The position numbers were made by a program, and so were the translations under genes. DNA of 64,000 bases, from positions 4,926,001 through 4,990,000 of the forward strand of contig NC_060117.1 of the NCBI RefSeq assembly GCF_021155765.1, written 5' to 3'. Positions 39,305 to 64,000 of this stretch are shown piece after piece. The notes below the pieces were generated by a model, which did no database searches, was not told the origin of the DNA, and saw only the letters and a program-made list of their open reading frames with translations. Every line of letters starts with the position of its first letter. The stretch's first letter is position 1. Origin of the DNA: Diprion similis (Eukaryota; Arthropoda; Insecta; Hymenoptera; Diprionidae).

Positions 39305-41160
39305 TTTAAATTTACACCTTAGACATTTATGTACACTAGTTACATCCTAAGTAATTAAGATGAATAGAAAAAAAATGAAATTAGGTGCGAACTGAAATGT
39401 TGTTATTTTATCGCAATATCTAACACAACTGTCCCCCCATCCCGATACGAAACAGGATGCCAGGCATCCACAGGCGTAGCTTACGAGGGAAAATTGGCTA
39501 ATTGGAAACGGAAATCGGCAACGCGCATGGCTGGTTTTACATTTTGTCACCCAATTGTTATGCCAATGAAGTGCGGATGCGTAATACTTATTTAATTATT
39601 ATTTTCGTTATAAATACATTGAAACCATAGTAGACTATATGGTTCGTGACTGCCTCGATTAATTTTCCTTCAAATTATCGAATTTACCTAACCTTAACAT
39701 AATCCTAATTGTAGTTGAACAGCTTTTTATGAAACTGTAGTTATATTATGATGTTTCGTATATTATTCATGATCAGTTACATGTTAGACTCATATTTGGA
39801 AGAAGTCCAAAATATAGTAACCTAAGAACGTTGTCATTCAAATGTAATATTGAAAATAAATTTTCCTTTTCGATGAGTCTACAATTGACCCTAAAAATTT
39901 CATAGTAACATAAGGTATGAAGGTGAATGATTTAATGGCTTCGTTCATTCCGAGACCAGCTATTTTGTACAGAATTCGTGATCAGATCGAAAAGGGCGAA
40001 ATTCATTCTGACTCACTACAGCGAAAGGCAATATATGCGCAATATGTTATCCGTGTTCTTCAACGAACACTTTACGTGATGCTATTAATCTAATCTGGAC
40101 AGTCGGAGTCCGGTTGAAAGAGCAGACAAAATGTTTGGTAGTTATACGCTTGCATAGTCGCAAACTGCCTTCTACAGTTTGTTGATATTCGACGTGCGCT
40201 TATTGCATTGTTGTACGATGAAACGATGAGAAACGGAAACAGTTGCGTAATGGAAAACGGGACTGATAATTTTTATTTGATAAGGTATATAACAATTTGA
40301 TTCAACTCAGTACACGGTCGATCAAAATAACCAATTTCTTGATGATCATCTTTGAAATGATGAACGTTCATAAGGAACGCGAAGAGTCCGTTACCTGCAA
40401 AATTTCCGGCCATAGAGGGACGATAAACTTGCTTTCACGGTACGCTGCATATTTGACTGGTGATACCGTCAAGGCATCTGACTCTGTATGAAGGATGCAT
40501 TTTCGACTGGTTCCATAGAACTGAGGTCTACTCCGTTAGAAGTTACGGATGAAGAATTAAAAAATTTTGTTGCATATTCTCTGGTCTTGATCCCTACGTG
40601 GTTACGTCGTGTTTTTGAGTTCCTGAAGAAAGACCTCACACCGTGGGTGCAACTCGAAGTTGATGGTGAATGTCCAAAAAATCTAAAAAATATTTAGGCT
40701 AATCCCTTCTAGTTAGTGCTAAACTTTGACATATCCTGGAACACGATGAAATTATTTTCAATATTGCTGAAACGTTGGATTGTTTTAGGGGGGATTGATT
40801 TTATGTCTCAATACGTTGCAAACCGAGTTTTGAATGTGACAGCTACGGGACAATTCAGTGCGGCGCCTAATTGGTGATAACCGGTCGACAGAAAACGCCT
40901 AACCACAGGCAACCTAACGCACATAGTAAATGAGTAGCGAATCTTTTGTAAGTGAAAACTTAAGTGTAGTACGACGAGTGACTCATTGTACGCACTCCAT
41001 ATAATAGGATTGGAGGGTTCATGGACAAGACACAGGCAATCGACCTAACAAACGCGCGTCATAATCAATCAGCTCCTGTTTTCAAACTACTTCAAGGGGT
41101 CAGATGATCTCCTGATCACTTCTAGGCAGGTATGAGACGAAAAGTGGAAGAAATTAGTGA
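39305..41160. other. 5' flank of mbc up to the satellite edge
   Basis: This holds the presumed mbc promoter and 5' untranslated region; no conserved promoter element is clear. Two short plus-strand open frames (40297-40491 and 40488-40697) lie in different frames, and their products match nothing I recognise. They could be a decayed gene fragment or chance. The last few hundred bases before 41160 do not obviously align to the satellite monomer. Confidence 0.4.
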
Positions 41161-41464
41161 ATAATGTTCAATCGTTCGTCTGTAACTTCATTCGCGTTGC
41201 TTGCAGCTTACTTAAACTGCGCATAATCGATTCCTCTGGCGAAATTACGTCGGATAGGTGCCTCGAAGAATTTATTGCACCACTCTTCGGAATCGTCGAA
41301 ATTTTCTCCAAAAATCCAAAGGGGTAAGCCTTACTTCTTTCGTCATTTTCGGACCCGAATATTTTTCGTCTCGGAATCGATATGTACACCAACTCTAGAG
41401 TAATTCGACCCCCAGGAACTCAGAAAGCACCTCAGAAATAGCGTCAGAGCGGCAGCAGAGAAAT
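41155..41464. repeat. Diverged edge unit of the satellite
   Basis: This unit aligns along its length with the 304-bp monomer (TAATCGATTCCTCT, CGTCGAAATTTT, CAGGAACTCAG, GGCAGCAGAGAAATGACGAT are shared) but carries many substitutions. It is about 311 bp long, judged from the positions of CTGTAAC and ATCGATTCCTCT relative to the next unit. It marks the proximal end of the array. Confidence 0.85.
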
Positions 41465-42712
41465 GACGATTATTATCATGAGTTTTTTGGCTGTAACTTT
41501 GCAGGTGTTGCTCGCAGCGTATCGGGACTGCGATTCATCGATTCCTCTCGCAAAATCACGTCGGAATAGGACCCTAGAAAATGAATTGCAGCACTTTTCA
41601 AAGTCGTCGAAATTTTCGCCAAAAATGCGAAGGTGTTAGCCTTGGATTTTTTTTGGCCGAAAAATCTTTTGTCTCGGAATCGATCCGTATGACGCTTTTT
41701 AGACTGATTCGACGCCCAGGAACTCAGAAAACACATGAAAAATAGCCTAGGACCAGCAGCAGAGAAATGACGATGAAAATCTGCAGTTTTTCGGCTGTAA
41801 CTTTGCAGGTGTTGCTCGCAGCGTATCGGGACTGCGATTAATCGATTCCTCTCGCAAAATCACGTCGGAATAGTACCCTAAAGAATTAATTGCAGCGCTT
41901 TTCAAAGTCGTCGAAATTTTCGCCAAAAATGCAAAGGGGTTAGCCTTGGATTTTTTTTGGCCGAAAAATCTTTTGTCTGGGAATCGATCCGTATGACGCT
42001 TCTTAGACTAATTCGACGCCCAGGAACTCAGAAAACACATGAAAAATAGCCTAGGACCAGCAGCAGAGAAATGACGATGAAAATCTGCAGTTTTTCGGCT
42101 GTAACTTTGCAGGTGTTGCTCGCAGCGTATCGGGACTGCGATTAATCGATTCCTCTCGCAAAATCACGTCGGAATAGTACCCTAAAGAATTAATTGCAGC
42201 ACTTTTCAAAGTCGTCGAAATTTTCGCCAAAAATGCAAAGGGGTTAGCCTTGGATTTTTTTTGGCCGAAAAATCTTTTGTCTCGGAATCGATCCGTATGA
42301 CGCTTTTTAGACTAATTCGACGCCCAGGAACTCAGAAAACACATAAAAAATAGCCTAGGACCAGCAGCAGAGAAATGACGATGAAAATCTGCAGTTTTTC
42401 GGCTGTAACTTTGCAGGTGTTGCTCGCAGCGTATCGGGACTGCGATTAATCGATTCCTCTCGCAAAATCACGTCGGAATAGTACCCTAAAGAATTAATTG
42501 CAGCACTTTTCAAAGTCGTCGAAATTTTCGCCAAAAATGCAAAGGGGTTAGCCTTGGATTTTTTTTGGCCGAAAAATCTTTTGTCTGGGAATCGATCCGT
42601 ATGACGCTTCTTAGACTAATTCGACGCCCAAGAACTCAGAAAACACATGAAAAATAGCCTAGGACCAGCAGCAGAGAAATGACGATGAAAATCTGCAGTT
42701 TTTCGGCTGTAA

Positions 42713-45700
42713 CTTTGCAGGTGTTGCTCGCAGCGTATCGGGACTGCGATTAATCGATTCCTCTCGCAAAATCACGTCGGAATAGTACCCTAAAGAATTA
42801 ATTGCAGCACTTTTCAAAGTCGTCGAAATTTTCGCCAAAAATGCAAAGGGGTTAGCCTTGGATTTTTTTTGGCCGAAAAATCTTTTGTCTGGGAATCGAT
42901 CCGTACGACGCTTCTTAGACTAATTCGACGCCCAGGAACTCAGAAAACACATGAAAAATAGCCTAGGACCAGCAGCAGAGAAATGACGATGAAAATCTGC
43001 AGTTTTTCGGCTGTTACTTTGCAGGTGTTGCTCGCAGCGTATCGGGACTGCGATTAATCGATTCCTCTCGCAAAATCACGTCGGAATAGTACCCTAAAGA
43101 ATTATTTGCAGCACTTTTCAAAGTCGTCGAAATTTTCGCCAGAAATGCAAAGGGGTTAGCCTTGGATTTTTTTTGGCCGAACAATCTTTTGTCTCGGAAT
43201 CGATCCGTATGACGCTTTTTAGACTAATTCGACGCCCAGGAACTCAGAAAACACATGGAAAATAGCCTAGGACCAGCAGCAGAGAAATGACGATGAAAAT
43301 CTGCAGTTTTTCGGCTGTAACTTTGCAGGTGTTGCTCGCAGCGTATCGGGACTGCGATTAATCGATTCCTCTCGCAAAATCACGTCGGAATAGTACCCTA
43401 AAGAATTAATTGCAGCACTTTTCAAAGTCGTCGAAATTTTCGCCAAAAATGCAAAGGGGTTAGCCTTGTATTTTTTGGCCGAAAGATCTTTTGTCTGGGG
43501 ATCGATCCGTATGACGCTTTTTAGACTAATTCGACGCCCAGGAACTCAGAAAACACATGAAAAATAGCCTAGGACCAGCAGCAGAGAAATGACGATGAAA
43601 ATCTGCAGTTTTTCGGCTGTAACTTTGCAGGTGTTGCTCGCAGCGTATCGGGACTGCGATTAATCGATTCCTCTCGCAAAATCACGTCGGAATAGTACCC
43701 TAAAGAATTAATTGCAGCACTTTTCAAAGTCGTCGAAATTTTCGCCAAAAATGCAAAGGGGTTAGCCTTGGATTTTTTTTGGCCGAAAAATCTTTTGTCT
43801 CGGAATCGATCCGTATGACGCTTTTTAGACTAATTCGACGCCCAGGAACTCAGAAAACACATAAAAAATAGCCTAGGACCAGCAGCAGAGAAATGACGAT
43901 GAAAATCTGCAGTTTTTCGGCTGTAACTTTGCAGGTGTTGCTCGCAGCGTATCGGGACTGCGATTAATCGATTCCTCTCGCAAAATCACGTCGGAATAGT
44001 ACCCTAAAGAATTAATTGCAGCACTTTTCAAAGTCGTCGAAATTTTCGCCAAAAATGCAAAGGGGTTAGCCTTGGATTTTTTTTGGCCGAAAAATCTTTT
44101 GTCTGGGAATCGATCCGTATGACGCTTCTTAGACTAATTCGACGCCCAGGAACTCAGAAAACACATGAAAAATAGCCTAGGACCAGCAGCAGAGAAATGA
44201 CGATGAAAATCTGCAGTTTTTCGGCTGTAACTTTGCAGGTGTTGCTCGCAGCGTATCGGGACTGCGATTAATCGATTCCTCTCGCAAAATCACGTCGGAA
44301 TAGTACCCTAAAGAATTAATTGCGGCACTTTTCAAAGTCGTCGAAATTTTCGCCAAAAATGCAAAGGGGTTAGCCTTGGATTTTTTTTGGCCGAAAAATC
44401 TTTTGTCTCGGAATCGATCCGTATGACGCTTTTTAGACTAATTCAACGCCCAGGAACTCAGAAAACACATGAAAAATAGCCTAGGACCAGCAGCAGAGAA
44501 ATGACGTTGAAAATCTGCAGTTTTTCGGCTGTTACTTTGCAGGTGTTGCTCGCAGCGTATCGGGACTGCGATTAATCGTGTCCTCTCGCAAAATCACGTC
44601 GGAATAGTACCCTAAAGAATTAATTGCAGCACTTTTCAAAGTCGTCGAAATTTTCGCCAAAAATGCAAAGGGGTTAGCCTTGGATTTTTTTTGGCCGAAA
44701 AATCTTTTGTCTGGGAATCGATCCGTATGACGCTTCGTAGACTGATTCGACGCCCAGGAACTCAGAAAACACATGAAAAATAGCCTAGGACCAGCAGCAG
44801 AGAAATGACGATGAAAATCTGCAGTTTTTCGGCTGTAACTTTGCAGGTGTTGCTCGCAGCGTATCGGGACTGCGATTAATCGATTCCTCTCGCAAAATCA
44901 CGTCGGAATAGTACCCTATAGAATTATTTGCAGCACTTTTCAAAGTCGTCGAAATTTTCGCCAAAAATGCAAAGGGGTTAGCCTTGGATTTTTTTTGGCC
45001 GAAAAATCTTTTGTCTGGGAATCGATCCGTATGACGCTTCTTAGACTAATTCGACGCCCAAGAACTCAGAAAACACATGAAAAATAGCCTAGGACCAGCA
45101 GCAGAGAAATGACGATGAAAATCTGCAGTTTTTCGGCTGTAACTTTGCAGGTGTTGCTCGCAGCGTATCGGGACTGCGATTAATCGATTCCTCTCGCAAA
45201 ATCACGTCGGAATAGTACCCTAAAGAATTAATTGCGGCACTTTTCAAAGTCGTCGAAATTTTCGCCAAAAATGCAAAGGGGTTAGCCTTGGATTTTTTTT
45301 GGCCGAAAAATCTTTTGTCTCGGAATCGATCCGTATGACGCTTTTTAGACTAATTCGACGCCCAGGAACTCAGAAAACACATGAAAACTAGCCTAGGACC
45401 AGCAGCAGAGAAATGACGATGAAAATCTGCAGTTTTTCGGCTGTAACTTTGCAGGTGTTGCTCGCAGCGTATCGGGACTGCGATTAATCGATTCCTCTCG
45501 CAAAATCACGTCGGAATAGTACCCTATAGAATTATTTGCAGCACTTTTCAAAGTCGTCGAAATTTTCGCCAAAAATGCAAAGGGGTTAGCCTTGGATTTT
45601 TTTTGGCCGAAAAATCTTTTGTCTCGGAATCGATCCGTATGACGCTTTTTAGACTAATTCGACGCCCAGGAACTCAGAAAACACATGAAAAATAGCCTAG

Positions 45701-47058
45701 GACCAGCAGCAGAGAAATGACGATGAAAATCTGCAGTTTTTCGGCTGTAACTTTGCAGGTGTTGCTCGCAGCGTATCGGGACTGCGATTCATCGATTCCT
45801 CTCGCAAAATCACGTCGGAATAGGACCCTAGAAAATGAATTGCAGCACTTTTCAAAGTCGTCGAAATTTTCGCCAAAAATGCAAAGGTGTTAGCCTTGGA
45901 TTTTTTTTGGCCGAAAAATCTTTTGTCTCGGAATCGATCCGTATGACGCTTTTTAGACTAATTCGACGCCCAGGAACTCAGAAAACACATGAAAAATAGC
46001 CTAGGACCAGCAGCAGAGAAATGACGATGAAAATCTGCAGTTTTTCGGCTGTAACTTTGCAGGTGTTGCTCGCAGCGTATCGGGACTGCGATTAATCGAT
46101 TCCTCTCGCAAAATCACGTCGGAATAGTACCCTAAAGAATTAATTGCAGCACTTTTCAAAGTCGTCGGAATTTTCGCCAAAAATGCAAAGGGGTTAGCCT
46201 TGGATTTTTTTTGGCCGAAAAATCTTTTGTCTCGGAATCGATCCGTATGACGCTTTTTAGACTAATTCGACGCCCAGGAACTCAGAAAACACATAAAAAA
46301 TAGCCTAGGACCAGCAGCAGAGAAATGACGATGAAAATCTGCAGTTTTTCGGCTGTAACTTTGCAGGTGTTGCTCGCAGCGTATCGGGACTGCGATTAAT
46401 CGATTCCTCTCGCAAAATCACGTCGGAATAGTACCCTAAAGAATTAATTGCAGCACTTTTCAAAGTCGTCGAAATTTTCGCCAAAAATGCAAAGGGGTTA
46501 GCCTTGGATTTTTTTTGGCCGAAAAATCTTTTGTCTGGGAATCGATCCGTATGACGCTTCTTAGACTAATTCGACGCCCAGGAACTCAGAAAACACATGA
46601 AAAATAGCCTAGGACCAGCAGCAGAGAAATGACGATGAAAATCTGCAGTTTTTCGGCTGTAACTTTGCAGGTGTTGCTCGCAGCGTATCGGGACTGCGAT
46701 TAATCGATTCCTCTCGCAAAAGCACGTCGGAATAGTACCCTGAAGAATTAATTGCAGCACTTTTCAAAGTCGTCGAAATTTTTGCCAAAAATGCAAAGGG
46801 GTTAGCCTTGGATTTTTTTTGGCCGAAAAATCTTTTGTCTCGGAATCGATCCGTATGACGCTCTTTAGACTAATTCGACGCCCAGGAACTCAGAAAACAC
46901 ATGAAAAATAGCCTAGGACCAGCAGCAGCGAAATGACGATGAAAATCTGCAGTTTTTTGGCTGTAACTTTGCAGGTGTTGCTCGCAGCGTATCGGGACTG
47001 CGATTAATCGATTCCTCTCGCAAAATCACGTCGGAATAGTACCCTAAAGAATTAATTG
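42713..47058. repeat. Satellite block 1 (source or copy of block 2)
   Basis: A 4.35-kb run of units sharing rare variants with 47271-51008. Shared marks include CCGTACGACG (42901), GCCAGAAATG (about 43139), CCGAACAATC (about 43177) and a shortened T-run with GGCCGAAAGATC (about 43470). The first 1.7 kb matches at an offset of 4558 bp (15 units minus 2). The part from about 45061 matches at 3646, then 3950 bp. Confidence 0.8.
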
Positions 47059-47270
47059 CGGCACTTTTCAAAGTCGTCGAAATTTTCGCCAAAAATGCAA
47101 AGGGGTTAGCCTTGGATTTTTTTTGGCCGAAAAATCTTTTGTCTCGGAATCGATCCGTATGACGCTTTTTAGACTAATTCGACGCCCAGGAACTCAGAAA
47201 ACACATGAAAAATAGCCTAGGACCAGCAGCAGAGAAATGACGTTGAAAATCTGCAGTTTTTTGGCTGTTA

Positions 47271-50200
47271 CTTTGCAGGTGTTGCTCGCAGCGTATCGGG
47301 ACTGCGATTAATCGATTCCTCTCGCAAAATCACGTCGGAATAGTACCCTAAAGAATTAATTGCAGCACTTTTCAAAGTCGTCGAAATTTTCGCCAAAAAT
47401 GCAAAGGGGTTAGCCTTGGATTTTTTTTGGCCGAAAAATCTTTTGTCTGGGAATCGATCCGTACGACGCTTCTTAGACTAATTCGACGCCCAGGAACTCA
47501 GAAAACACATGAAAAATAGCCTAGGACCAGCAGCAGAGAAATGACGATGAAAATCTGCAGTTTTTCGGCTGTTACTTTGCAGGTGTTGCTCGCAGCGTAT
47601 CGGGACTGCGATTAATCGATTCCTCTCGCAAAATCACGTCGGAATAGTACCCTAAAGAATTATTTGCAGCACTTTTCAAAGTCGTCGAAATTTTCGCCAG
47701 AAATGCAAAGGGGTTAGCCTTGGATTTTTTTTGGCCGAACAATCTTTTGTCTCGGAATCGATCCGTATGACGCTTTTTAGACTAATTCGACGCCCAGGAA
47801 CTCAGAAAACACATGGAAAATAGCCTAGGACCAGCAGCAGAGAAATGACGATGAAAATCTGCAGTTTTTCGGCTGTAACTTTGCAGGTGTTGCTCGCAGC
47901 GTATCGGGACTGCGATTAATCGATTCCTCTCGCAAAATCACGTCGGAATAGTACCCTAAAGAATTAATTGCAGCACTTTTCAAAGTCGTCGAAATTTTCG
48001 CCAAAAATGCAAAGGGGTTAGCCTTGTATTTTTTGGCCGAAAGATCTTTTGTCTGGGGATCGATCCGTATGACGCTTTTTAGACTAATTCGACGCCCAGG
48101 AACTCAGAAAACACATGAAAAATAGCCTAGGACCAGCAGCAGAGAAATGACGATGAAAATCTGCAGTTTTTCGGCTGTAACTTTGCAGGTGTTGCTCGCA
48201 GCGTATCGGGACTGCGATTAATCGATTCCTCTCGCAAAATCACGTCGGAATAGTACCCTAAAGAATTAATTGCAGCACTTTTCAAAGTCGTCGAAATTTT
48301 CGCCAAAAATGCAAAGGGGTTAGCCTTGGATTTTTTTTGGCCGAAAAATCTTTTGTCTCGGAATCGATCCGTATGACGCTTTTTAGACTAATTCGACGCC
48401 CAGGAACTCAGAAAACACATAAAAAATAGCCTAGGACCAGCAGCAGAGAAATGACGATGAAAATCTGCAGTTTTTCGGCTGTAACTTTGCAGGTGTTGCT
48501 CGCAGCGTATCGGGACTGCGATTAATCGATTCCTCTCGCAAAATCACGTCGGAATAGTACCCTAAAGAATTAATTGCAGCACTTTTCAAAGTCGTCGAAA
48601 TTTTCGCCAAAAATGCAAAGGGGTTAGCCTTGGATTTTTTTTGGCCGAAAAATCTTTTGTCTGGGAATCGATCCGTATGACGCTTCTTAGACTAATTCGA
48701 CGCCCAGGAACTCAGAAAACACATGAAAAATAGCCTAGGACCAGCAGCAGAGAAATGACGATGAAAATCTGCAGTTTTTCGGCTGTAACTTTGCAGGTGT
48801 TGCTCGCAGCGTATCGGGACTGCGATTAATCGATTCCTCTCGCAAAATCACGTCGGAATAGTACCCTAAAGAATTAATTGCGGCACTTTTCAAAGTCGTC
48901 GAAATTTTCGCCAAAAATGCAAAGGGGTTAGCCTTGGATTTTTTTTGGCCGAAAAATCTTTTGTCTCGGAATCGATCCGTATGACGCTTTTTAGACTAAT
49001 TCGACGCCCAGGAACTCAGAAAACACATGAAAACTAGCCTAGGACCAGCAGCAGAGAAATGACGATGAAAATCTGCAGTTTTTCGGCTGTAACTTTGCAG
49101 GTGTTGCTCGCAGCGTATCGGGACTGCGATTAATCGATTCCTCTCGCAAAATCACGTCGGAATAGTACCCTATAGAATTATTTGCAGCACTTTTCAAAGT
49201 CGTCGAAATTTTCGCCAAAAATGCAAAGGGGTTAGCCTTGGATTTTTTTTGGCCGAAAAATCTTTTGTCTCGGAATCGATCCGTATGACGCTTTTTAGAC
49301 TAATTCGACGCCCAGGAACTCAGAAAACACATGAAAAATAGCCTAGGACCAGCAGCAGAGAAATGACGATGAAAATCTGCAGTTTTTCGGCTGTAACTTT
49401 GCAGGTGTTGCTCGCAGCGTATCGGGACTGCGATTAATCGATTCCTCTCGCAAAATCACGTCGGAATAGTACCCCAAAGAATTAATTGCAGCACTTTTCA
49501 AAGTCGTCGAAATTTTCGCCAAAAATGCAAAGGGGTTAGCCTTGGATTTTTTTTGGCCGAAAAATCTTTTGTCTCGGAATCGATCCGTATGACGCTTTTT
49601 AGACTAATTCGACGCCCAGGAACTCAGAAAACACATGAAAAATAGCCTGAGACCAGCAGCAGAGAAATGACGATGAAAATCTGCAGTTTTTCGGCTGTAA
49701 CTTTGCAGGTGTTGCTCGCAGCGTATCGGGACTGCGATTCATCGATTCCTCTCGCAAAATCACGTCGGAATAGGACCCTAGAAAATGAATTGCAGCACTT
49801 TTCAAAGTCGTCGAAATTTTCGCCAAAAATGCAAAGGTGTTAGCCTTGGATTTTTTTTGGCCGAAAAATCTTTTGTCTCGGAATCGATCCGTATGACGCT
49901 TTTTAGACTAATTCGACGCCCAGGAACTCAGAAAACACATGAAAAATAGCCTAGGACCAGCAGCAGAGAAATGACGATGAAAATCTGCAGTTTTTCGGCT
50001 GTAACTTTGCAGGTGTTGCTCGCAGCGTATCGGGACTGCGATTAATCGATTCCTCTCGCAAAATCACGTCGGAATAGTACCCTAAAGAATTAATTGCAGC
50101 ACTTTTCAAAGTCGTCGGAATTTTCGCCAAAAATGCAAAGGGGTTAGCCTTGGATTTTTTTTGGCCGAAAAATCTTTTGTCTCGGAATCGATCCGTATGA

Positions 50201-51008
50201 CGCTTTTTAGACTAATTCGACGCCCAGGAACTCAGAAAACACATAAAAAATAGCCTAGGACCAGCAGCAGAGAAATGACGATGAAAATCTGCAGTTTTTC
50301 GGCTGTAACTTTGCAGGTGTTGCTCGCAGCGTATCGGGACTGCGATTAATCGATTCCTCTCGCAAAATCACGTCGGAATAGTACCCTAAAGAATTAATTG
50401 CAGCACTTTTCAAAGTCGTCGAAATTTTCGCCAAAAATGCAAAGGGGTTAGCCTTGGATTTTTTTTGGCCGAAAAATCTTTTGTCTGGGAATCGATCCGT
50501 ATGACGCTTCTTAGACTAATTCGACGCCCAGGAACTCAGAAAACACATGAAAAATAGCCTAGGACCAGCAGCAGAGAAATGACGATGAAAATCTGCAGTT
50601 TTTCGGCTGTAACTTTGCAGGTGTTGCTCGCAGCGTATCGGGACTGCGATTAATCGATTCCTCTCGCAAAAGCACGTCGGAATAGTACCCTGAAGAATTA
50701 ATTGCAGCACTTTTCAAAGTCGTCGAAATTTTTGCCAAAAATGCAAAGGGGTTAGCCTTGGATTTTTTTTGGCCGAAAAATCTTTTGTCTCGGAATCGAT
50801 CCGTATGACGCTCTTTAGACTAATTCGACGCCCAGGAACTCAGAAAACACATGAAAAATAGCCTAGGACCAGCAGCAGAGAAATGACGATGAAAATCTGC
50901 AGTTTTTTGGCTGTAACTTTGCAGGTGTTGCTCGCAGCGTATCGGGACTGCGATTAATCGATTCCTCTCGCAAAATCACGTCGGAATAGTACCCTAAAGA
51001 ATTAATTG
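47271..51008. repeat. Satellite block 2 (tandem copy of block 1)
   Basis: It carries the same rare variants as block 1 in the same order, but is two units (608 bp) shorter: three units are missing near 49.0 kb, and one extra unit carrying TACCCCAAAG and CCTGAGACC is present at about 49.4-49.7 kb. It lies almost directly beside block 1. Confidence 0.8.
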
Positions 51009-51424
51009 CAGCACTTTTAAAGTCGTCGAAATTTTCGCAAAAAATGCAAAGGGGTTAGCCTTGGATTTTTTTTGGCCGAAAGATCTTTTGTCTGGGGATC
51101 GATCCGTATGACGCTTTTTAGACTAATTCGACGCCCAGGAACTCAGAAAACACATGAAAAATAGCCTAGGACCAGCAGCAGAGAAATGACGATGAAAATC
51201 TGCAGTTTTTCGGCTGTAACTTTGCAGGTGTTGCTCGCAGCGTATCGGGACTGCGATTAATCGATTCCTCTCGCAAAATCACGTCGGAATAGTACCCTAA
51301 AGAATTAATTGCAGCACTTTTCAAAGTCGTCGAAATTTTCGCCAAAAATGCAAAGGGGTTAGCCTTGGATTTTTTTTGGCCGAAAAATCTTTTGTCTGGG
51401 AATCGATCCGTATGACGCTTCTTA

Positions 51425-54400
51425 GACTAATTCGACGCCCAGGAACTCAGAAAACACATGAAAAATAGCCTAGGACCAGCAGCAGAGAAATGACGATGAA
51501 AATCTGCAGTTTTTCGGCTGTAACTTTGCAGGTGTTGCTCGCAGCGTATCGGGACTGCGATTAATCGATTCCTCTCGCAAAATCACGTCGGAATAGTACC
51601 CTAAAGAATTAATTGCGGCACTTTTCAAAGTCGTCGAAATTTTCGCCAAAAATGCAAAGGGGTTAGCCTTGGATTTTTTTTGGCCGAAAAATCTTTTGTC
51701 TCGGAATCGATCCGTATGACGCTTTTTAGACTAATTCGACGCCCAGGAACTCAGAAAACACATGAAAACTAGCCTAGGACCAGCAGCAGAGAAATGACGA
51801 TGAAAATCTGCAGTTTTTCGGCTGTAACTTTGCAGGTGTTGCTCGCAGCGTATCGGGACTGCGATTAATCGATTCCTCTCGCAAAATCACGTCGGAATAG
51901 TACCCTAAATAATTAATTGCAGCACTTTTCGAAGTCGTCGAAATTCTCGCCAAAAATGCAAAGGGGTTAGCCTTGGATTTTTTTTGGCCGAAAAATCTTT
52001 TGTCTCAGAATCGATCCGTATGACGCTTTTTAGACTAATTCGACGCCCAGGAACTCAGAAAACACATGAAAAATAGCCTAGGACCAGCAGCAGAGAAATG
52101 ACGTTGAAAATCTGCAGTTTTTCGGCTGTAACTTTGCAGGTGTTGCTCGCAGCGTATCGGGACTGCGATTAATCGATTCCTCTCGCAAAATCACGTCGGA
52201 ATAGTACCCTAAAGAATTATTTGCAGCACTTTTCAAAGTCGTCGAAATTTTCGCCAAAAATGCAAAGGGGTTAGCCTTGGATTTTTTTTGGCCGAAAAAT
52301 CTTTTGTCTCGGAATCGATCCGTATGACGCTTTTTAGACTAATTCGACGCCCAGGAACTCAGAAAACACATAAAAAATAGCCTAGGACCAGCAGCAGAGA
52401 AATGACGATGAAAATCTGCAGTTTTTCGGCTGTAACTTTGCAGGTGTTGCTCGCAGCGTATCGGGACTGCGATTAATCGATTCCTCTCGCAAAATCACGT
52501 CGGAATAGTACCCCAAAGAATTAATTGCAGCACTTTTCAAAGTCGTCGAAATTTTCGCCAAAAATGCAAAGGGGTTAGCCTTGGATTTTTTTTGGCCGAA
52601 AAATCTTTTGTCTCGGAATCGATCCGTATGACGCTTTTTAGACTAATTCGACGCCCAGGAACTCAGAAACCACATGAAAAATAGCCTGAGACCAGCAGCA
52701 GAGAAATGACGATGAAAATCTGCAGTTTTTCGGCTGTAACTTTGCAGGTGTTGCTCGCAGCGTATCGGGACTGCGATTCATCGATTCCTCTCGCAAAATC
52801 ACGTCGGAATAGGACCCTAGAAAATGAATTGCAGCACTTTTCAAAGTCGTCGAAATTTTCGCCAAAAATGCAAAGGTGTTAGCCTTGGATTTTTTTTGGC
52901 CGAAAAATCTTTTGTCTCGGAATCGATCCGTATGACGCTTTTTAGACTAATTCGACGCCCAGGAACTCAGAAAACACATGAAAAATAGCCTAGGACCAGC
53001 AGCAGAGAAATGACGATGAAAATCTGCAGTTTTTCGGCTGTAACTTTGCAGGTGTTGCTCGCAGCGTATCGGGACTGCGATTAATCGATTCCTCTCGCAA
53101 AATCACGTCGGAATAGTACCCTAAAGAATTAATTGCAGCACTTTTCAAAGTCGTCGGAATTTTCGCCAAAAATGCAAAGGGGTTAGCCTTGGATTTTTTT
53201 TGGCCGAAAAATCTTTTGTCTCGGAATCGATCCGTATGACGCTCTTTAGACTAATTCGACGCCCAGGAACTCAGAAAACACATGAAAAATAGCCTAGGAC
53301 CAGCAGCAGAGAAATGACGATGAAAATCTGCAGTTTTTTGGCTGTAACTTTGCAGGTGTTGCTCGCAGCGTATCGGGACTGCGATTAATCGATTCCTCTC
53401 GCAAAATCACGTCGGAATAGTACCCTAAAGAATTAATTGCAGCACTTTTCAAAGTCGTCGAAATTTTCGCCAAAAATGCAAAGGGGTTAGCCTTGGATTT
53501 TTTTTGGCCGAAAAATCTTTTGTCTGGGAATCGATCCGTATGACGCTTTTTAGACTAATTCGACGCCCAGGAACTCAGAAAACACATGAAAAATAGCCTA
53601 GGACCAGCAGCAGAGAAATGACGATGAAAATCTGCAGTTTTTCGGCTGTCACTTTGCAGGTGTTGCTCGCAGCGTATCGGGACTGCGATTAATCGATTCC
53701 TCTCGCAAAATCACGTCGGAATAGTACCCTAAAGAATTAATTGCAGCACTTTTCAAAGTCGTCGAAATTTTCGCCAAAAATGCAAAGGGGTTAGCCTTGG
53801 ATTTTTTTTGGCCGAAAAATCTTTTGTCTCGGAATCGATCCGTATGACGCTTTTTAGACTAATTCGACGCCCAGGAACTCAGGAAACACATGAAAAATAG
53901 CCTAGGACCAGCAGCAGAGAAATGACGATGAAAATCTGCAGTTTTTTGGCTGTAACTTTGCAGGTGTTGCTCGCAGCGTATCGGGACTGCGATTAATCGA
54001 TTCCTCTCGCAAAATCACGTCGGAATAGTACCCTAAAGAATTAATTGCAGCACTTTTCAGAGTCGTCGAAATTTTCGCCAAAAATGCAAAGGGGTTAGCC
54101 TTTGATTTTTTTTGGCCGAAAAATCTTTTGTCTCGGAATCGATCCGTATGACGCTTTTTAGACTAATTCGACGCCCAGGAACTCAGAAAACACATGAAAA
54201 ATAGCCTAGGACCAGCAGCAGAGAAATGACGATGAAAATCTGCAGTTTTTCGGCTGTAACTTTGCAGGTGTTGCTCGCAGCGTATCGGAACTGCGATTAA
54301 TCGATTCCTCTCGCAAAATCACGTCGGAATAGTACCCTAAAGAATTAATTGCAGCACTTTTCAAAGTCGTCGAAATTTTCGCCAAAAATGCAAAGGGGTT

Positions 54401-56193
54401 AGCCTTGGATTTTTTTTGGCCGAAGAATCTTTTGTCTGGGAATCGATCCGTATGACGCTCTTTAGACTAATTCGACGCCCAGGAACTCAGAAAACACATG
54501 AAAAATAGCCTAGGACCAGCAGCAGAGAAATGACGATGAAAATCTGCAGTTTTTTGGCTGTAACTTTGCAGGTGTTGCTCGCAGCGTATCGGGACTGCGA
54601 TTAATCGATTCCCCTCGCAAAATCACGTCGGAATAGTACCCTAAAGAATTAATTGCAGCACTTTTCAAAGTCGTCGAAATTTCCGCCAAAAATGCAAAGG
54701 GGTTAGCCTTGGATTTTTTTTGGCCGAAAAATCTTCTGTCTCGGAATCGATCCGTATGACGCTCTTTAGACTAATTCGACGCCCAGGAACTCAGAAAACA
54801 CATGAAAAATAGCCTAGGACCAGCAGCAGAGAAATGACGATGAAAATCTGCAGTTTTTCGGCTGTAACTTTGCAGGTGTTGCTCGCAGCGTATCGGGACT
54901 GCGATTAATCGATTCCTCTCGCAAAATCACGTCGGAATAGTACCCTAAAGAATTAATTGCAGCACTTTTCAAAGTCGTCGAAATTTTCGCCAAAAATGCA
55001 AAGGGGTTAGCCTTGGATTTTTTTTGGCCGAAAAATCTTTTGTCTCGGAATCGATCCGTATGACGCTTTTTAGACTAATTCGACGCCCAGGAACTCAGAA
55101 AACACATGAAAAATAGCCTAGGACCAGCAGCAGAGAAATGACGATGAAAATCTGCAGTTTTTCGGCTGTAACTTTGCAGGTGTTGCTCGCAGCGTATCGG
55201 GACTGCGATTAATCGATTCCTCTCGCAAAATCACGTCGGAATAGTACCCCAAAGAATTAATTGCAGCACTTTTCAAAGTCGTCGAAATTTTCGCTAAAAA
55301 TGCAAAGGGGTTAGCCTTGGATTTTTTTTGGCCGAAAAATCTTTTGTCTCGGAATCGATCCGTATGACGCTTTTTAGACTAATTCGACGCCCAGGAACTC
55401 AGAAAACACATGAAAAATAGCCTGAGACCAGCAGCAGAGAAATGACGATGAAAATCTGCAGTTTTTCGGCTGTAACTTTGCAGGTGTTGCTCGCAGCGTA
55501 TCGGGACTGCGATTCATCGATTCCTCTCGCAAAATCACGTCGGAATAGGACCCTAGAAAATGAATTGCAGCACTTTTCAAAGTCGTCGAAATTTTCGCCA
55601 AAAATGCAAAGGTGTTAGCCTTGGATTTTTTTTGGCCGAAAAATCTTTTGTCTCGGAATCGATCCGTATGACGCTTTTTAGACTAATTCGACGCCCAGGA
55701 ACTCAGAAAACACATGAAAAATAGCCTAGGACCAGCAGCAGAGAAATGACGATGAAAATCTGCAGTTTTTCGGCTGTAACTTTGCAGGTGTTGCTCGCAG
55801 CGTATCGGGACTGCGATTAATCGATTCCTCTCGCAAAATCACGTCGGAATAGTACCCTAAAGAATTAATTGCAGCACTTTTCAAAGTCGTCGGAATTTTC
55901 GCCAAAAATGCAAAGGGGTTAGCCTTGGATTTTTTTTGGCCGAAAAATCTTTTGTCTCGGAATCGATCCGTATGACGCTCTTTAGACTAATTCGACGCCC
56001 AGGAACTCAGAAAACACATGAAAAATAGCCTAGGACCAGCAGCAGAGAAATGACGATGAAAATCTGCAGTTTTTTGGCTGTAACTTTGCAGGTGTTGCTC
56101 GCAGCGTATCGGGACTGCGATTAATTGATTCCTCTCGCAAAATCACGTCGGAATAGTACCCTAAAGAATTAATTGCAGCACTTTTCAAAGTCG
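51425..56193. repeat. Satellite block 3
   Basis: A 4.77-kb run of units whose rare variants reappear in 57201-61361. Marks include GAAAACTAGCC (51762), CCCTAAATAATT with CACTTTTCGAAG (about 51903), GGCTGTCACTTTG (53644), CAGGAAACAC (53879), CAGAGTCGTCG (about 54058) and CGTATCGGAACTG (54281). The offset steps from 5776 to 5472 to 5168 bp, that is 19, 18 and 17 units. Confidence 0.8.
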
Positions 56194-57200
56194 TCGGAAT
56201 TTTCGCCAAAAATGCAAAGGGGTTAGCCTTGGATTTTTTTTGGCCGAAAAATCTTTTGTCTCGGAATCGATCCGTATGACGCTTTTTAGACTAATTCGAC
56301 GCCCAGGAACTCAGAAAACACATAAAAAATAGCCTAGGACCAGCAGCAGAGAAATGACGATGAAAATCTGCAGTTTTTCGGCTGTAACTTTGCAGGTGTT
56401 GCTCGCAGCGTATCGGGACTGCGATTAATCGATTCCTCTCGCAAAATCACGTCGGAATAGTACCCTAAAGAATTAATTGCAGCACTTTTCAAAGTCGTCG
56501 AAATTTTCGCCAAAAATGCAAAGGGGTTAGCCTTGGATTTTTTTTGGCCGAAAAATCTTTTGTCTGGGAATCGATCCGTATGACGCTTCTTAGACTAATT
56601 CGACGCCCAGGAACTCAGAAAACACATGAAAAATAGCCTAGGACCAGCAGCAGAGAAATGACGATGAAAATCTGCAGTTTTTCGGCTGTAACTTTGCAGG
56701 TGTTGCTCGCAGCGTATCGGGACTGCGATTAATCGATTCCTCTCGCAAAAGCACGTCGGAATAGTACCCTGAAGAATTAATTGCAGCACTTTTCAAAGTC
56801 GTCGAAATTTTTGCCAAAAATGCAAAGGGGTTAGCCTTGGATTTTTTTTGGCCGAAAAATCTTTTGTCTCGGAATCGATCCGTAGGACGCTTTTTAGACT
56901 AATTCGACGCCCAGGAACTCAGAAAACACATGAAAAATAGCCTAGGACCAGCAGCAGAGAAATGACGTTGAAAATCTGCAGTTTTTCGGCTGTTACTTTG
57001 CAGGTGTTGCTCGCAGCGTATCGGGACTGCGATTAATCGTGTCCTCTCGCAAAATCACGTCGGAATAGTACCCTAAAGAATTAATTGCAGCACTTTTCAA
57101 AGTCGTCGAAATTTTCGCCAAAAATGCAAAGGGGTTAGCCTTGGATTTTTTTTGGCCGAAAAATCTTTTGTCTGGGAATCGATCCGTATGACGCTTCGTA

Positions 57201-60200
57201 GACTAATTCGACGCCCAGGAACTCAGAAAACACATGAAAAATAGCCTAGGACCAGCAGCAGAGAAATGACGATGAAAATCTGCAGTTTTTCGGCTGTAAC
57301 TTTGCAGGTGTTGCTCGCAGCGTATCGGGACTGCGATTAATCGATTCCTCTCGCAAAATCACGTCGGAATAGTACCCTAAAGAATTAATTGCGGCACTTT
57401 TCAAAGTCGTCGAAATTTTCGCCAAAAATGCAAAGGGGTTAGCCTTGGATTTTTTTTGGCCGAAAAATCTTTTGTCTCGGAATCGATCCGTATGACGCTT
57501 TTTAGACTAATTCGACGCCCAGGAACTCAGAAAACACATGAAAACTAGCCTAGGACCAGCAGCAGAGAAATGACGATGAAAATCTGCAGTTTTTCGGCTG
57601 TAACTTTGCAGGTGTTGCTCGCAGCGTATCGGGACTGCGATTAATCGATTCCTCTCGCAAAATCACGTCGGAATAGTACCCTAAATAATTAATTGCAGCA
57701 CTTTTCGAAGTCGTCGAAATTCTCGCCAAAAATGCAAAGGGGTTAGCCTTGGATTTTTTTTGGCCGAAAAATCTTTTGTCTCAGAATCGATCCGTATGAC
57801 GCTTTTTAGACTAATTCGACGCCCAGGAACTCAGAAAACACATGAAAAATAGCCTAGGACCAGCAGCAGAGAAATGACGTTGAAAATCTGCAGTTTTTCG
57901 GCTGTAACTTTGCAGGTGTTGCTCGCAGCGTATCGGGACTGCGATTAATCGATTCCTCTCGCAAAATCACGTCGGAATAGTACCCTAAAGAATTATTTGC
58001 AGCACTTTTCAAAGTCGTCGAAATTTTCGCCAAAAATGCAAAGGGGTTAGCCTTGGATTTTTTTTGGCCGAAAAATCTTTTGTCTCGGAATCGATCCGTA
58101 TGACGCTTTTTAGACTAATTCGACGCCCAGGAACTCAGAAAACACATAAAAAATAGCCTAGGACCAGCAGCAGAGAAATGACGATGAAAATCTGCAGTTT
58201 TTCGGCTGTAACTTTGCAGGTGTTGCTCGCAGCGTATCGGGACTGCGATTCATCGATTCCTCTCGCAAAATCACGTCGGAATAGGACCCTAGAAAATGAA
58301 TTGCAGCACTTTTCAAAGTCGTCGAAATTTTCGCCAAAAATGCAAAGGTGTTAGCCTTGGATTTTTTTTGGCCGAAAAATCTTTTGTCTCGGAATCGATC
58401 CGTATGACGCTTTTTAGACTAATTCGACGCCCAGGAACTCAGAAAACACATGAAAAATAGCCTAGGACCAGCAGCAGAGAAATGACGATGAAAATCTGCA
58501 GTTTTTCGGCTGTAACTTTGCAGGTGTTGCTCGCAGCGTATCGGGACTGCGATTAATCGATTCCTCTCGCAAAATCACGTCGGAATAGTACCCTAAAGAA
58601 TTAATTGCAGCACTTTTCAAAGTCGTCGGAATTTTCGCCAAAAATGCAAAGGGGTTAGCCTTGGATTTTTTTTGGCCGAAAAATCTTTTGTCTCGGAATC
58701 GATCCGTATGACGCTCTTTAGACTAATTCGACGCCCAGGAACTCAGAAAACACATGAAAAATAGCCTAGGACCAGCAGCAGAGAAATGACGATGAAAATC
58801 TGCAGTTTTTTGGCTGTAACTTTGCAGGTGTTGCTCGCAGCGTATCGGGACTGCGATTAATCGATTCCTCTCGCAAAATCACGTCGGAATAGTACCCTAA
58901 AGAATTAATTGCAGCACTTTTCAAAGTCGTCGAAATTTTCGCCAAAAATGCAAAGGGGTTAGCCTTGGATTTTTTTTGGCCGAAAAATCTTTTGTCTGGG
59001 AATCGATCCGTATGACGCTTTTTAGACTAATTCGACGCCCAGGAACTCAGAAAACACATGAAAAATAGCCTAGGACCAGCAGCAGAGAAATGACGATGAA
59101 AATCTGCAGTTTTTCGGCTGTCACTTTGCAGGTGTTGCTCGCAGCGTATCGGGACTGCGATTAATCGATTCCTCTCGCAAAATCACGTCGGAATAGTACC
59201 CTAAAGAATTAATTGCAGCACTTTTCAAAGTCGTCGAAATTTTCGCCAAAAATGCAAAGGGGTTAGCCTTGGATTTTTTTTGGCCGAAAAATCTTTTGTC
59301 TCGGAATCGATCCGTATGACGCTTTTTAGACTAATTCGACGCCCAGGAACTCAGGAAACACATGAAAAATAGCCTAGGACCAGCAGCAGAGAAATGACGA
59401 TGAAAATCTGCAGTTTTTTGGCTGTAACTTTGCAGGTGTTGCTCGCAGCGTATCGGGACTGCGATTAATCGATTCCTCTCGCAAAATCACGTCGGAATAG
59501 TACCCTAAAGAATTAATTGCAGCACTTTTCAGAGTCGTCGAAATTTTCGCCAAAAATGCAAAGGGGTTAGCCTTTGATTTTTTTTGGCCGAAAAATCTTT
59601 TGTCTCGGAATCGATCCGTATGACGCTTTTTAGACTAATTCGACGCCCAGGAACTCAGAAAACACATGAAAAATAGCCTAGGACCAGCAGCAGAGAAATG
59701 ACGATGAAAATCTGCAGTTTTTCGGCTGTAACTTTGCAGGTGTTGCTCGCAGCGTATCGGAACTGCGATTAATCGATTCCTCTCGCAAAATCACGTCGGA
59801 ATAGTACCCTAAAGAATTAATTGCAGCACTTTTCAAAGTCGTCGAAATTTTCGCCAAAAATGCAAAGGGGTTAGCCTTGGATTTTTTTTGGCCGAAGAAT
59901 CTTTTGTCTGGGAATCGATCCGTATGACGCTCTTTAGACTAATTCGACGCCCAGGAACTCAGAAAACACATGAAAAATAGCCTAGGACCAGCAGCAGAGA
60001 AATGACGATGAAAATCTGCAGTTTTTCGGCTGTAACTTTGCAGGTGTTGCTCGCAGCGTATCGGGACTGCGATTAATCGATTCCTCTCGCAAAATCACGT
60101 CGGAATAGTACCCTAAAGAATTAATTGCAGCACTTTTCAAAGTCGTCGAAATTTTCGCCAAAAATGCAAAGGGGTTAGCCTTGGATTTTTTTTGGCCGAA

Positions 60201-61361
60201 AAATCTTTTGTCTCGGAATCGATCCGTATGACGCTTTTTAGACTAATTCGACGCCCAGGAACTCAGAAAACACATGAAAAATAGCCTAGGACCAGCAGCA
60301 GAGAAATGACGATGAAAATCTGCAGTTTTTCGGCTGTAACTTTGCAGGTGTTGCTCGCAGCGTATCGGGACTGCGATTAATCGATTCCTCTCGCAAAATC
60401 ACGTCGGAATAGTACCCCAAAGAATTAATTGCAGCACTTTTCAAAGTCGTCGAAATTTTCGCTAAAAATGCAAAGGGGTTAGCCTTGGATTTTTTTTGGC
60501 CGAAAAATCTTTTGTCTCGGAATCGATCCGTATGACGCTTTTTAGACTAATTCGACGCCCAGGAACTCAGAAAACACATGAAAAATAGCCTGAGACCAGC
60601 AGCAGAGAAATGACGATGAAAATCTGCAGTTTTTCGGCTGTAACTTTGCAGGTGTTGCTCGCAGCGTATCGGGACTGCGATTCATCGATTCCTCTCGCAA
60701 AATCACGTCGGAATAGGACCCTAGAAAATGAATTGCAGCACTTTTCAAAGTCGTCGAAATTTTCGCCAAAAATGCAAAGGTGTTAGCCTTGGATTTTTTT
60801 TGGCCGAAAAATCTTTTGTCTCGGAATCGATCCGTATGACGCTTTTTAGACTAATTCGACGCCCAGGAACTCAGAAAACACATGAAAAATAGCCTAGGAC
60901 CAGCAGCAGAGAAATGACGATGAAAATCTGCAGTTTTTCGGCTGTAACTTTGCAGGTGTTGCTCGCAGCGTATCGGGACTGCGATTAATCGATTCCTCTC
61001 GCAAAATCACGTCGGAATAGTACCCTAAAGAATTAATTGCAGCACTTTTCAAAGTCGTCGGAATTTTCGCCAAAAATGCAAAGGGGTTAGCCTTGGATTT
61101 TTTTTGGCCGAAAAATCTTTTGTCTCGGAATCGATCCGTATGACGCTCTTTAGACTAATTCGACGCCCAGGAACTCAGAAAACACATGAAAAATAGCCTA
61201 GGACCAGCAGCAGAGAAATGACGATGAAAATCTGCAGTTTTTTGGCTGTAACTTTGCAGGTGTTGCTCGCAGCGTATCGGGACTGCGATTAATTGATTCC
61301 TCTCGCAAAATCACGTCGGAATAGTACCCTAAAGAATTAATTGCAGCACTTTTCAAAGTCG
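57201..61361. repeat. Satellite block 4 (copy of block 3)
   Basis: It repeats block 3 variant by variant but lacks two whole units, those at about 52.38-52.69 and 54.55-54.86 kb of block 3. The 608-bp length difference equals two monomers exactly. Confidence 0.8.
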
Positions 61362-64000
61362 TCGAAATTTTCGCCAAAAATGCAAAGGGGTTAGCCTTGG
61401 ATTTTTTTTGGCCGAAAAATCTTTTGTCTGGGAATCGATCCGTATGACGCTTTTTAGACTAATTCGACGCCCAGGAACTCAGAAAACACATGAAAAATAG
61501 CCTAGGACCAGCAGCAGAGAAATGACGATGAAAATCTGCAGTTTTTCGGCTGTAACTTTGCAGGTGTTGCTCGCAGCGTATCGGGACTGCGATTAATCGA
61601 TTCCTCTCGCAAAATCACGTCGGAATAGTACCCTAAAGAATTAATTGCAGCACTTTTCAAAGTCGTCGAAATTTTCGCCAAAAATGCAAAGGGGTTAGCC
61701 TTGGATTTTTTTTGGCCGAAGAATCTTTTGTCTGGGAATCGATCCGTATGACGCTCTTTAGACTAATTCGACGCCCAGGAACTCAGAAAACACATGAAAA
61801 ATAGCCTAGGACCAGCAGCAGAGAAATGACGATGAAAATCTGCAGTTTTTTGGCTGTAACTTTGCAGCTGTTGCTCGCAGCGTATCGGGACTGCGATTAA
61901 TCGATTCCCCTCGCAAGATCACGTCGGAATAGTACCCTAAAGAATTAATTGCAGCACTTTTCAAAGTCGTCGAAATTTCCGCCAAAAATGCAAAGGGGTT
62001 AGCCTTGGATTTTTTTCGGCCGAAAAATCTTTTGTCTGGGAATCGATCCGTATGACGCTTTTTAGACTAATTCGACGCCCAGGAACTCAGAAAACACATG
62101 AAAAATAGCCTGGGACCAGCAGGAGAGAAATGACGATGAAAATCTGCAGTTTTTCGGCTGTAACTTTGCAGGTGTTGCTCGCAGCGTATCGGGACTGCGA
62201 TTAATCGATTCCTCTCGCAAAATCACGTCGGAATAGTACCCTAAAGAATTAATTGCAGCACTTTTCAAAGTCGTCGAAATTTTCGCCAAAAATGCAAAGG
62301 GGTTAGCCTTGGATTTTTTTTGGCCGAAAAATCTTTTGTCTCGGAATCGATCCGTATGACGCTCTTTAGACTAATTCGACGCCCAGGAACTCAGAAAACA
62401 CATGAAAAATAGCCTAGGACCAGCAGCAGAGAAATGACGATGAAAATCTGCAGTTTTTTGGCTGTAACTTTGCAGGTGTTGCTCGCAGCGTATCGGGACA
62501 GCGATTAATCGATTCCCCTCGCAAAATCACGTCGGAATAGTACCCTAAAGAATTATTGCAGCACTTTTCAAAGTCGTCGAAATTTTCGCCAAAAATGCAA
62601 AGGGGTTAGCCTTGGATTTTTTTTGGCCGAAAAATCTTTTGTCCGGGAATCGATCCGTATGACGCTTTTTAGACTAATTCGACGCCCAGGAACTCAGAAA
62701 ACACATGAAAAATAGCCTAGGACCAGCAGGAGAGAAATGACGATGAAAATCTGCAGTTTTTCGGCTGTAACTTTGCAGGTGTTGCTCGCAGCGTATCGGG
62801 ACTGCGATTAATCGATTCCTCTCGCAAAATCACGTCGGAATAGTACCCTAAAGAATTAATTGCAGCACTTTTCAAAGTGGTCGAAATTTTCGCCAAAAAT
62901 GCAAAGGGGTTAGCCTTGGATTTTTTTAGGCCGAAGAATCTTTTGTCTGGGAATCGATCCGTATGACGCTTTTTAGACTAATTCGACGCCCAGGAACTCA
63001 GAAAACACATGAAGAATAGCCTGGGACCAGCAGCAGAGAAATGACGATGAAAATCTGCAGTTTTTCGGCTGTAACTTTGCAGGTGTTGCTCGCAGCGTAT
63101 CGGGACTGCGATTAATCGATTCCTCTCGCAAAATCACGTCGGAATAGTACCCTAAAGAATTAATTGCAGCACTTTTCAAAGTCGTCGAAATTTTCGCCAA
63201 AAATGCAAAGGGGTTAGCCTTGGATTTTTTTTGGCCGAAAAATCTTTTGTCTGGGAATCGATCCGTATGACGCTTTTTAGACTAATTCGACGCCCAGGAA
63301 CTCAGAAAACACATGAAAAATAGCCTAGGACCAGCAGCAGAGAAATGACGATGAAAATCTGCAGTTTTTCGGCTGTAACTTTGCAGGTGTTGCTCGCAGC
63401 GTATCGGGACTGCGATTAATCGATTCCTCTCGCAAAATCACGTCGGAATAGTACCCTAAAGAATTAATTGCAGCACTTTTCAAAGTCGTCGAAATTTTCG
63501 CCAAAAATGCAAAGGGGTTAGCCTTGGATTTTTTTTGGCCGAAAAATCTTTTGTCTCGGAATCGATCCGTATGACGCTTTTTAGACTAATTCGACGCCCA
63601 GGAACTCAGAAAACACATGAAAAATAGCCTAGGACCAGCAGCAGAGAAATGACGATGAAAATCTGCAGTTTTTCGGCTGTAACTTTGCAGGTGTTGCTCG
63701 CAGCGTATCGGGACTGCGATTAATCGATTCCTCTCGCAAAATCACGTCGGAATAGTACCCCAAAGAATTAATTGCAGCACTTTTCAAAGTCGTCGAAATT
63801 TTCGCTAAAAATGCAAAGGGGTTAGCCTTGGATTTTTTTTGGCCGAAAAATCTTTTGTCTCGGAATCGATCCGTATGACGCTTTTTAGACTAATTCGACG
63901 CCCAGGAACTCAGAAAACACATGAAAAATAGCCTGAGACCAGCAGCAGAGAAATGACGATGAAAATCTGCAGTTTTTCGGCTGTAACTTTGCAGGTGTTG

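Follow-up and report, generated by a model that had tools for sequence, protein, structure and literature searches.

How does a long and almost uniform block of tandem repeats come to occupy a site in a chromosome arm, and where do its units come from? This question is raised by a 64,000-nucleotide stretch of Diprion similis DNA (RefSeq assembly GCF_021155765.1, contig NC_060117.1, positions 4,926,001 to 4,990,000; hereafter the window), the right part of which is filled by a satellite array with a 304-bp unit. Tandem Repeats Finder returned a single array at 41216-64000, with period 304, 74.9 copies and 97% matches. The array runs for 4.3 kb past the window edge, to position 4311 of the downstream locus (L029), so that its total length is ~27.1 kb, with zero N in the window part or in L029. 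The original prediction of at least 22.8 kb of head-to-tail 304-bp units extending beyond the edge was thus borne out; its starting point at 41155 has to be moved, as the first recognisable unit begins at 41216 and is a diverged member of a second, 312-bp type. When cut from 41524 onward, the window part yields 73 complete units: 69 measure 304 bp, two measure 303 bp and two 302 bp, and those of 304 bp differ from their own consensus at 0-8 positions. With the exception of the left rim unit, the identity of complete window units to the 304 consensus is 97.4-100%; past the window it declines, down to 95.4% in the last 304 unit. The GC content of the array, 43%, exceeds the 29-41% of the 2-kb bins in the first 40 kb of the window. 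A 30-mer from the unit has 7,403 exact matches in the genome and the same pattern reversed has none, which excludes chance as the source of the array. The explanation we favor, with a probability of roughly 70%, is that the 304-bp type represents a recent wave that replaced units of the 312-bp type at already existing sites by homologous copying, followed by local amplification.

The assembly consists of 269 Mb in 60 contigs, of which C1 to C14 are chromosome-sized (10.9-28.0 Mb, 264.5 Mb together) and the window corresponds to C13:4926001-4990000. A search of this genome with the diverged unit at the left rim of the window array revealed the second unit type, with a period of 312 bp and ~84% identity to the 304 type, which is 8 bp shorter and differs from it by some 36-41 substitutions. 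For comparison, 1.9 kb were read from each of 20 arrays, and 195 units, those of the window and L029 included, were retained after dropping any that ran off the locus or did not extend over consensus positions 6 to 299; 135 of them measure 302-304 bp and the other 60 measure 307-313 bp. The two types are cleanly separated at 30 diagnostic columns that are close to fixed and were picked on the same units that were then scored: none of the 135 units of the 304 type has more than two of the 312 states, and none of the 52 units of the 312 type, from eleven arrays, has more than two of the 304 states. The array at L045 (C13:1054501-1056400) and three rim units were not used in picking the columns.

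Among the matches listed, the 312 type is present on C1, C2, C3, C6, C7, C8, C10, C12 and C13, plus one rim on C14, and the 304 type on C1, C5, C7, C9, C12, C13 and C14; both therefore co-occur on C1, C7, C12, C13 and C14, and together they reach at least 12 of the 14 chromosomes, with neither type listed on C4 or C11. Exact 20-mer counts give a minimum of 7,616 units for the 304 type and of 10,490 for the 312 type. These 20-mers are exact in 107 of the 135 and in 36 of the 60 sampled units, respectively, and extrapolation from about twenty arrays suggests totals of ~9,600 and ~17,500 units, i.e. ~8.4 Mb or ~3% of the genome. The family thus forms long head-to-tail arrays, in high copy number and devoid of long reading frames, as expected of satellite DNA.

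The relation between both types is best seen where arrays of the 304 type end. Ten such ends were examined, and at seven of them, within ~3 bases, 312-type units adjoin the 304 array in repeat phase, so that a young core is surrounded by older layers of the same family. The window array and the one at C1:3.903-3.946 Mb show this at both of their ends, those at C1:2.925, C1:4.308 and C14:8.484 Mb at one end each. The rim units of the window array are closer to the 312 than to the 304 consensus, on the left (88.0% vs 78.6%) as well as on the right (85.7% vs 80.5%). At the 30 diagnostic columns the left rim unit shows 25 states of the 312 type, three of the 304 type (two of them in the last two columns) and two other letters, while the right rim unit and the rim unit of the C14 array show 23 and 24 states of the 312 type. 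Most of the 304 states in the left rim unit and in that of C14 are located toward the 304 array, and a junction scan, affected by an alignment artefact around the 8-bp difference, placed the switch inside a unit at most junctions. Rims could also be thought of as decayed 304 units, with unequal exchange homogenizing the middle of the array while the edges accumulate mutations, and diverged edge units are indeed what established theory anticipates under unequal exchange. Random decay, however, would not yield the states specific to the 312 type, including its 8-bp segment, that are seen in all three scored rim units; the two of the window array are also nearer to the 312 consensus, and we regard this explanation as very improbable. 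In-phase junctions point to homologous exchange or copying rather than to insertion in random phase.

A second line of evidence comes from divergence. The sampled arrays of the 304 type, spread over seven chromosomes, show a mean identity of 96.9-98.5% to other 304 arrays and of 96.9-99.5% within one array, whereas the twelve 312 arrays sampled are on average only 87.2-90.7% identical to one another while keeping 93.6-99.5% within each array (at most 400 pairs were sampled for each comparison, the window and L029 were counted as two although they belong to a single array, and the figures are weighted toward window units). Concerted evolution, seen as higher identity within than between arrays, is therefore clear in the 312 type and slight in the 304 type. 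A tree was built with 120 of the 195 units, leaving out at random 75 of the 86 units of the 304 type from the window and L029. Eleven of the twelve 312 arrays were recovered as clades and the twelfth carried the root. Only two of the nine 304 arrays other than that of the window formed clades, one of them with support 0.0, and for one of the nine (L052, on C14) the outcome was confounded by the 312 rim unit that it contains; the clade of 304 units holds no 312 unit. Since the 304 arrays are nearly identical and mostly unsorted by array, while the 312 arrays are ~10% apart and sorted, we take the 304 type as the younger expansion. An alternative would be that both types were interspersed from the beginning and each array came to fix one or the other at random, without any recent wave from chromosome to chromosome. 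The hybrid units found at the rims and at L045, a 312-type array that alternates between units with 304-type tails and other units, would fit such an old mixture, as would the five chromosomes that carry both types. Chance fixation, though, should have left similar divergence in both, and not 304 arrays that are almost as alike across chromosomes as within one array, so that we consider it unlikely.

There are also marks of amplification in place. In the window array, six blocks of 4-6 units are repeated 11-28 units farther on, and the copies differ at 0-1 positions over their whole length. A 63-mer carrying five variants occurs eight times in the genome, always within this array, and another variant is nearly private to one array on C1, where 48 of its 53 matches are located. 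These block duplications and array-private variants indicate that each array was locally amplified after the arrival of its units. A fixed higher-order repeat was considered for the window array and discarded, as there is no dominant lag and identical unit pairs are six or fewer at any lag from 1 to 30.

Taken in sequence, the proposed replacement would have begun with the older 312-bp type being scattered long ago over many arm sites, after which each array would have drifted separately. The derived 304-bp type would have arisen later and spread between chromosomes, landing by homology, and in repeat phase, in resident 312 arrays, whether by gene conversion, by break-induced replication or by satellite circles that became integrated. 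Unequal exchange within each array could then have amplified the 304 units, leaving 312 units at the rims only. Both the direction of the replacement and the copying route are what we infer from these data. Several observations weigh against this history. Since one genome is considered, its direction rests on divergence and on the position of the rims, and one genome cannot prove in which direction replacement took place. The node of the 304 clade has a support of just 0.6. The ten ends belong to arrays that happened to be listed, not to a random set, and three of them have no adjoining 312 unit: at C13:4.6657 and C13:6.0470 Mb the 304 array stops in other DNA, and at the other end of the C1:2.925 Mb core there are 1.3 kb of unrelated DNA before 312 units resume. 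The right rim unit of the window array is not a clean single switch, because its six 304-type states are distributed between the array-facing part (three), the middle (one) and the far end (two). Finally, the hybrid units of L045, at C13:1.05 Mb, could be an ancestral intermediate instead of recombinants. A broader proposal, that resident satellite sites act as landing pads which a new variant overwrites in phase, turnover thus proceeding by replacement at fixed addresses and not by new insertions, is put forward tentatively, at somewhat less than even odds.

The sequences around the arrays bear on whether the repeat might be part of, or have been spread by, a transposable element. The right flank of the window array contains a diverged dispersed element with 46 matches including itself, the other 45 at 65-89% identity, which could be read in that sense. 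Against it, the left flank is present once in the genome, the array holds no open reading frame (ORF) of 110 or more amino acids, and no mutual matches, and with them no shared flanking element, were found among eight flanks of 304 arrays; this origin seems barely credible to us. The dispersed fragment, at L029:4946-5120, has relatives on C10, C6, C3, C2, C4 and others, and near 19.56-19.58 Mb of C10 its copies are spaced every 2.2-2.8 kb. The right flank also carries one old satellite fragment (E 7e-23). In the left flank there is a weak satellite-like trace on the minus strand (40536-40843, E 3e-6), which is tentative because a similar opposite-strand match sits within satellite DNA (L058). 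The flank of a small 304 array at C13 ~6.047-6.048 Mb (L060:174-1500) has a GC content of 60%, compared to 36-39% in seven other flanks. The features of the locus are collected in Table 1.

Table 1. Features of the locus on C13; positions are those of the window unless given as chromosome coordinates.
Feature	Position	Strand	Evidence
DOCK-family gene, nearest recognised gene to the array	25522..38525	-	Pfam in three exons, plus two presumed end exons from the family layout
Left flank, present once in the genome	39716..41215	.	Whole-genome DNA search returned itself alone
Left rim unit, older 312-bp type, terminal part with 304-type states	41216..41523	+	Consensus identity and diagnostic columns
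Young 304-bp unit array	41524..64000, onward to ~C13:4993962	+	Tandem Repeats Finder, unit cutting, consensus identity
Single 312-type unit after the last 304 unit	to ~C13:4994270	+	Consensus identity

The array ends shortly after that last unit, at about C13:4994311. In the DOCK-family gene, Pfam matches to DOCK_N (37492-38253), DOCK-C2 and TPR_DOCK are distributed across three exons, taking the gene to 38.3 kb, or to 38.5 kb if a presumed end exon is counted. Its two end exons (25522-26007 and 38193-38525) are ORFs that we presume to belong to it from the usual layout of the family, the first of them having no match in Pfam. Farther to the left, the window contains a reading frame of 1270 amino acids (1374-5186), rich in Lys, Ser and Asp and without Pfam match, whose first residues may resemble those of BOD1/Shg1 proteins.

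The original prediction had also proposed a centromeric, pericentromeric or chromosome-arm location for the block, and it is the last of these that agrees best with the data. Long homogeneous arrays and at least 7,616 copies would suit a centromeric or pericentromeric satellite, and so would rims older than the core, as described for human alpha satellite in PMC12321929. Yet instead of one main location per chromosome, the family has at least six sites on C1 (0.12, 2.92, 3.90, 4.31, 6.09 and 10.35 Mb) and at least nine on C13, on both strands, no pericentromeric bulk was found among the matches listed, and the DOCK-family gene lies 2.7-3.0 kb from the window array. No match to the 15-base core of the CENP-B box within one substitution was found on either strand of the doubled unit, in which a less strict version of 13 bases has two matches, each at one substitution. 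Besides, there is a 279-bp satellite with no detectable kinship to the 304 unit (best match E 0.36), which with 15,569 exact 26-mers is more numerous than the 304 type. On C1 its exact matches begin at 14.24 Mb and, among those listed, cover 111 kb on one strand; it is also found at the starts of C6, C8 and C12 and of contigs C15 and C17. Judging from its sequence distribution, this satellite is a better centromere candidate than the 304/312 family, and is perhaps centromeric or terminal, and we consider a centromeric or pericentromeric nature of the 304 array quite unlikely. Regarding chromosome termini, long repeats of the TTAGG type were seen at four of the 14 chromosome starts read (C1, C2, C3 and C13), with shorter runs on C7 and C11.

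Several searches were directed at a possible role of the unit. A conserved protein-binding box was tried and rejected, as 112 of 313 columns are variable among 13 consensus rows and the longest invariant run, of 10, is below the shuffle mean of 11.4. Windows of low variation were not significant at widths of 30, 40 or 50 columns (P 0.22, 0.08 and 0.70), and the one zone to stand out, around column 117, is unusually variable (P 0.006, 0.012 and 0.052, in the order of these widths). An RNA structure formed by a single unit (z -0.88 on one strand, 0.27 on the other) and a 10-bp AT periodicity (P 0.11) were likewise discarded; positions 219-303 of the unit do form an inverted repeat, which is imperfect (62.8%, E 2.5e-4). 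Rfam gave no matches in the window and no stretch of viral contigs shares a 25-mer. The box, CENP-B, RNA-structure and Rfam checks gave no sign of a sequence-specific host function, a lack of which we infer for this family, most likely non-coding and self-propagating as far as its sequence tells. As side observations, contig C45 carries COX1 with an open frame in the invertebrate mitochondrial code, and a COX1-like stretch with five internal TGA at C7:8182164-8182700 (L034) is perhaps a nuclear copy of mitochondrial DNA.

A search of the literature on 304 bp satellite DNA in Hymenoptera returned nothing on this repeat, a result that does not show it to be unpublished. The euchromatic satellites 1.688 and Rsp-like of Drosophila have reportedly been dealt with by Sproul et al. 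in 2020. By their description in PMC7919458 and PMC7642928, these satellites resemble the present family in forming euchromatic arrays with length subfamilies and in having a young satellite enter older arrays. In Drosophila it is Rsp-like, treated as a satellite distinct from 1.688, that enters the arrays of the latter, at X-linked sites (PMC7919458); in the present case a length variant would displace its sister type from within one family, in phase and on several chromosomes. Human alpha satellite, as PMC12321929 describes it, is organized in layered expansions with a young homogeneous core between older divergent relatives, and unequal exchange, gene conversion, circles and break-induced replication are named there among the mechanisms considered. 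The 304 arrays share with it the young core and the older flanks of the same family, and differ in that the layering appears at several separate arm loci with no known centromere tie, in the unit of 304/312 bp, in lacking a full CENP-B-box match and in that the window array shows local block duplications but no higher-order repeat of fixed length. Like TCAST of Tribolium castaneum and other dispersed satellites (PMC5844308 and PMC3411249), the family is partly euchromatic, with some copies near genes, but TCAST is mainly pericentromeric, while the listed matches of the 304/312 family include no pericentromeric bulk. It is, like CenSol of the fire ant, an abundant insect satellite, although CenSol is the major centromeric repeat (PMC5024525) and the 304/312 family is spread over chromosome arms.

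The 304/312 repeat is therefore an ordinary kind of satellite with an unusually readable history. How satellite variants spread between non-homologous chromosomes is an old question, for which the array studied here is informative, being short enough to be assembled from end to end, with readable flanks and in-phase junctions to an older layer. Comparison of the same addresses across sister species or individuals could reveal directly which route replacement takes, be it gene conversion, integration of circles or break-induced replication.

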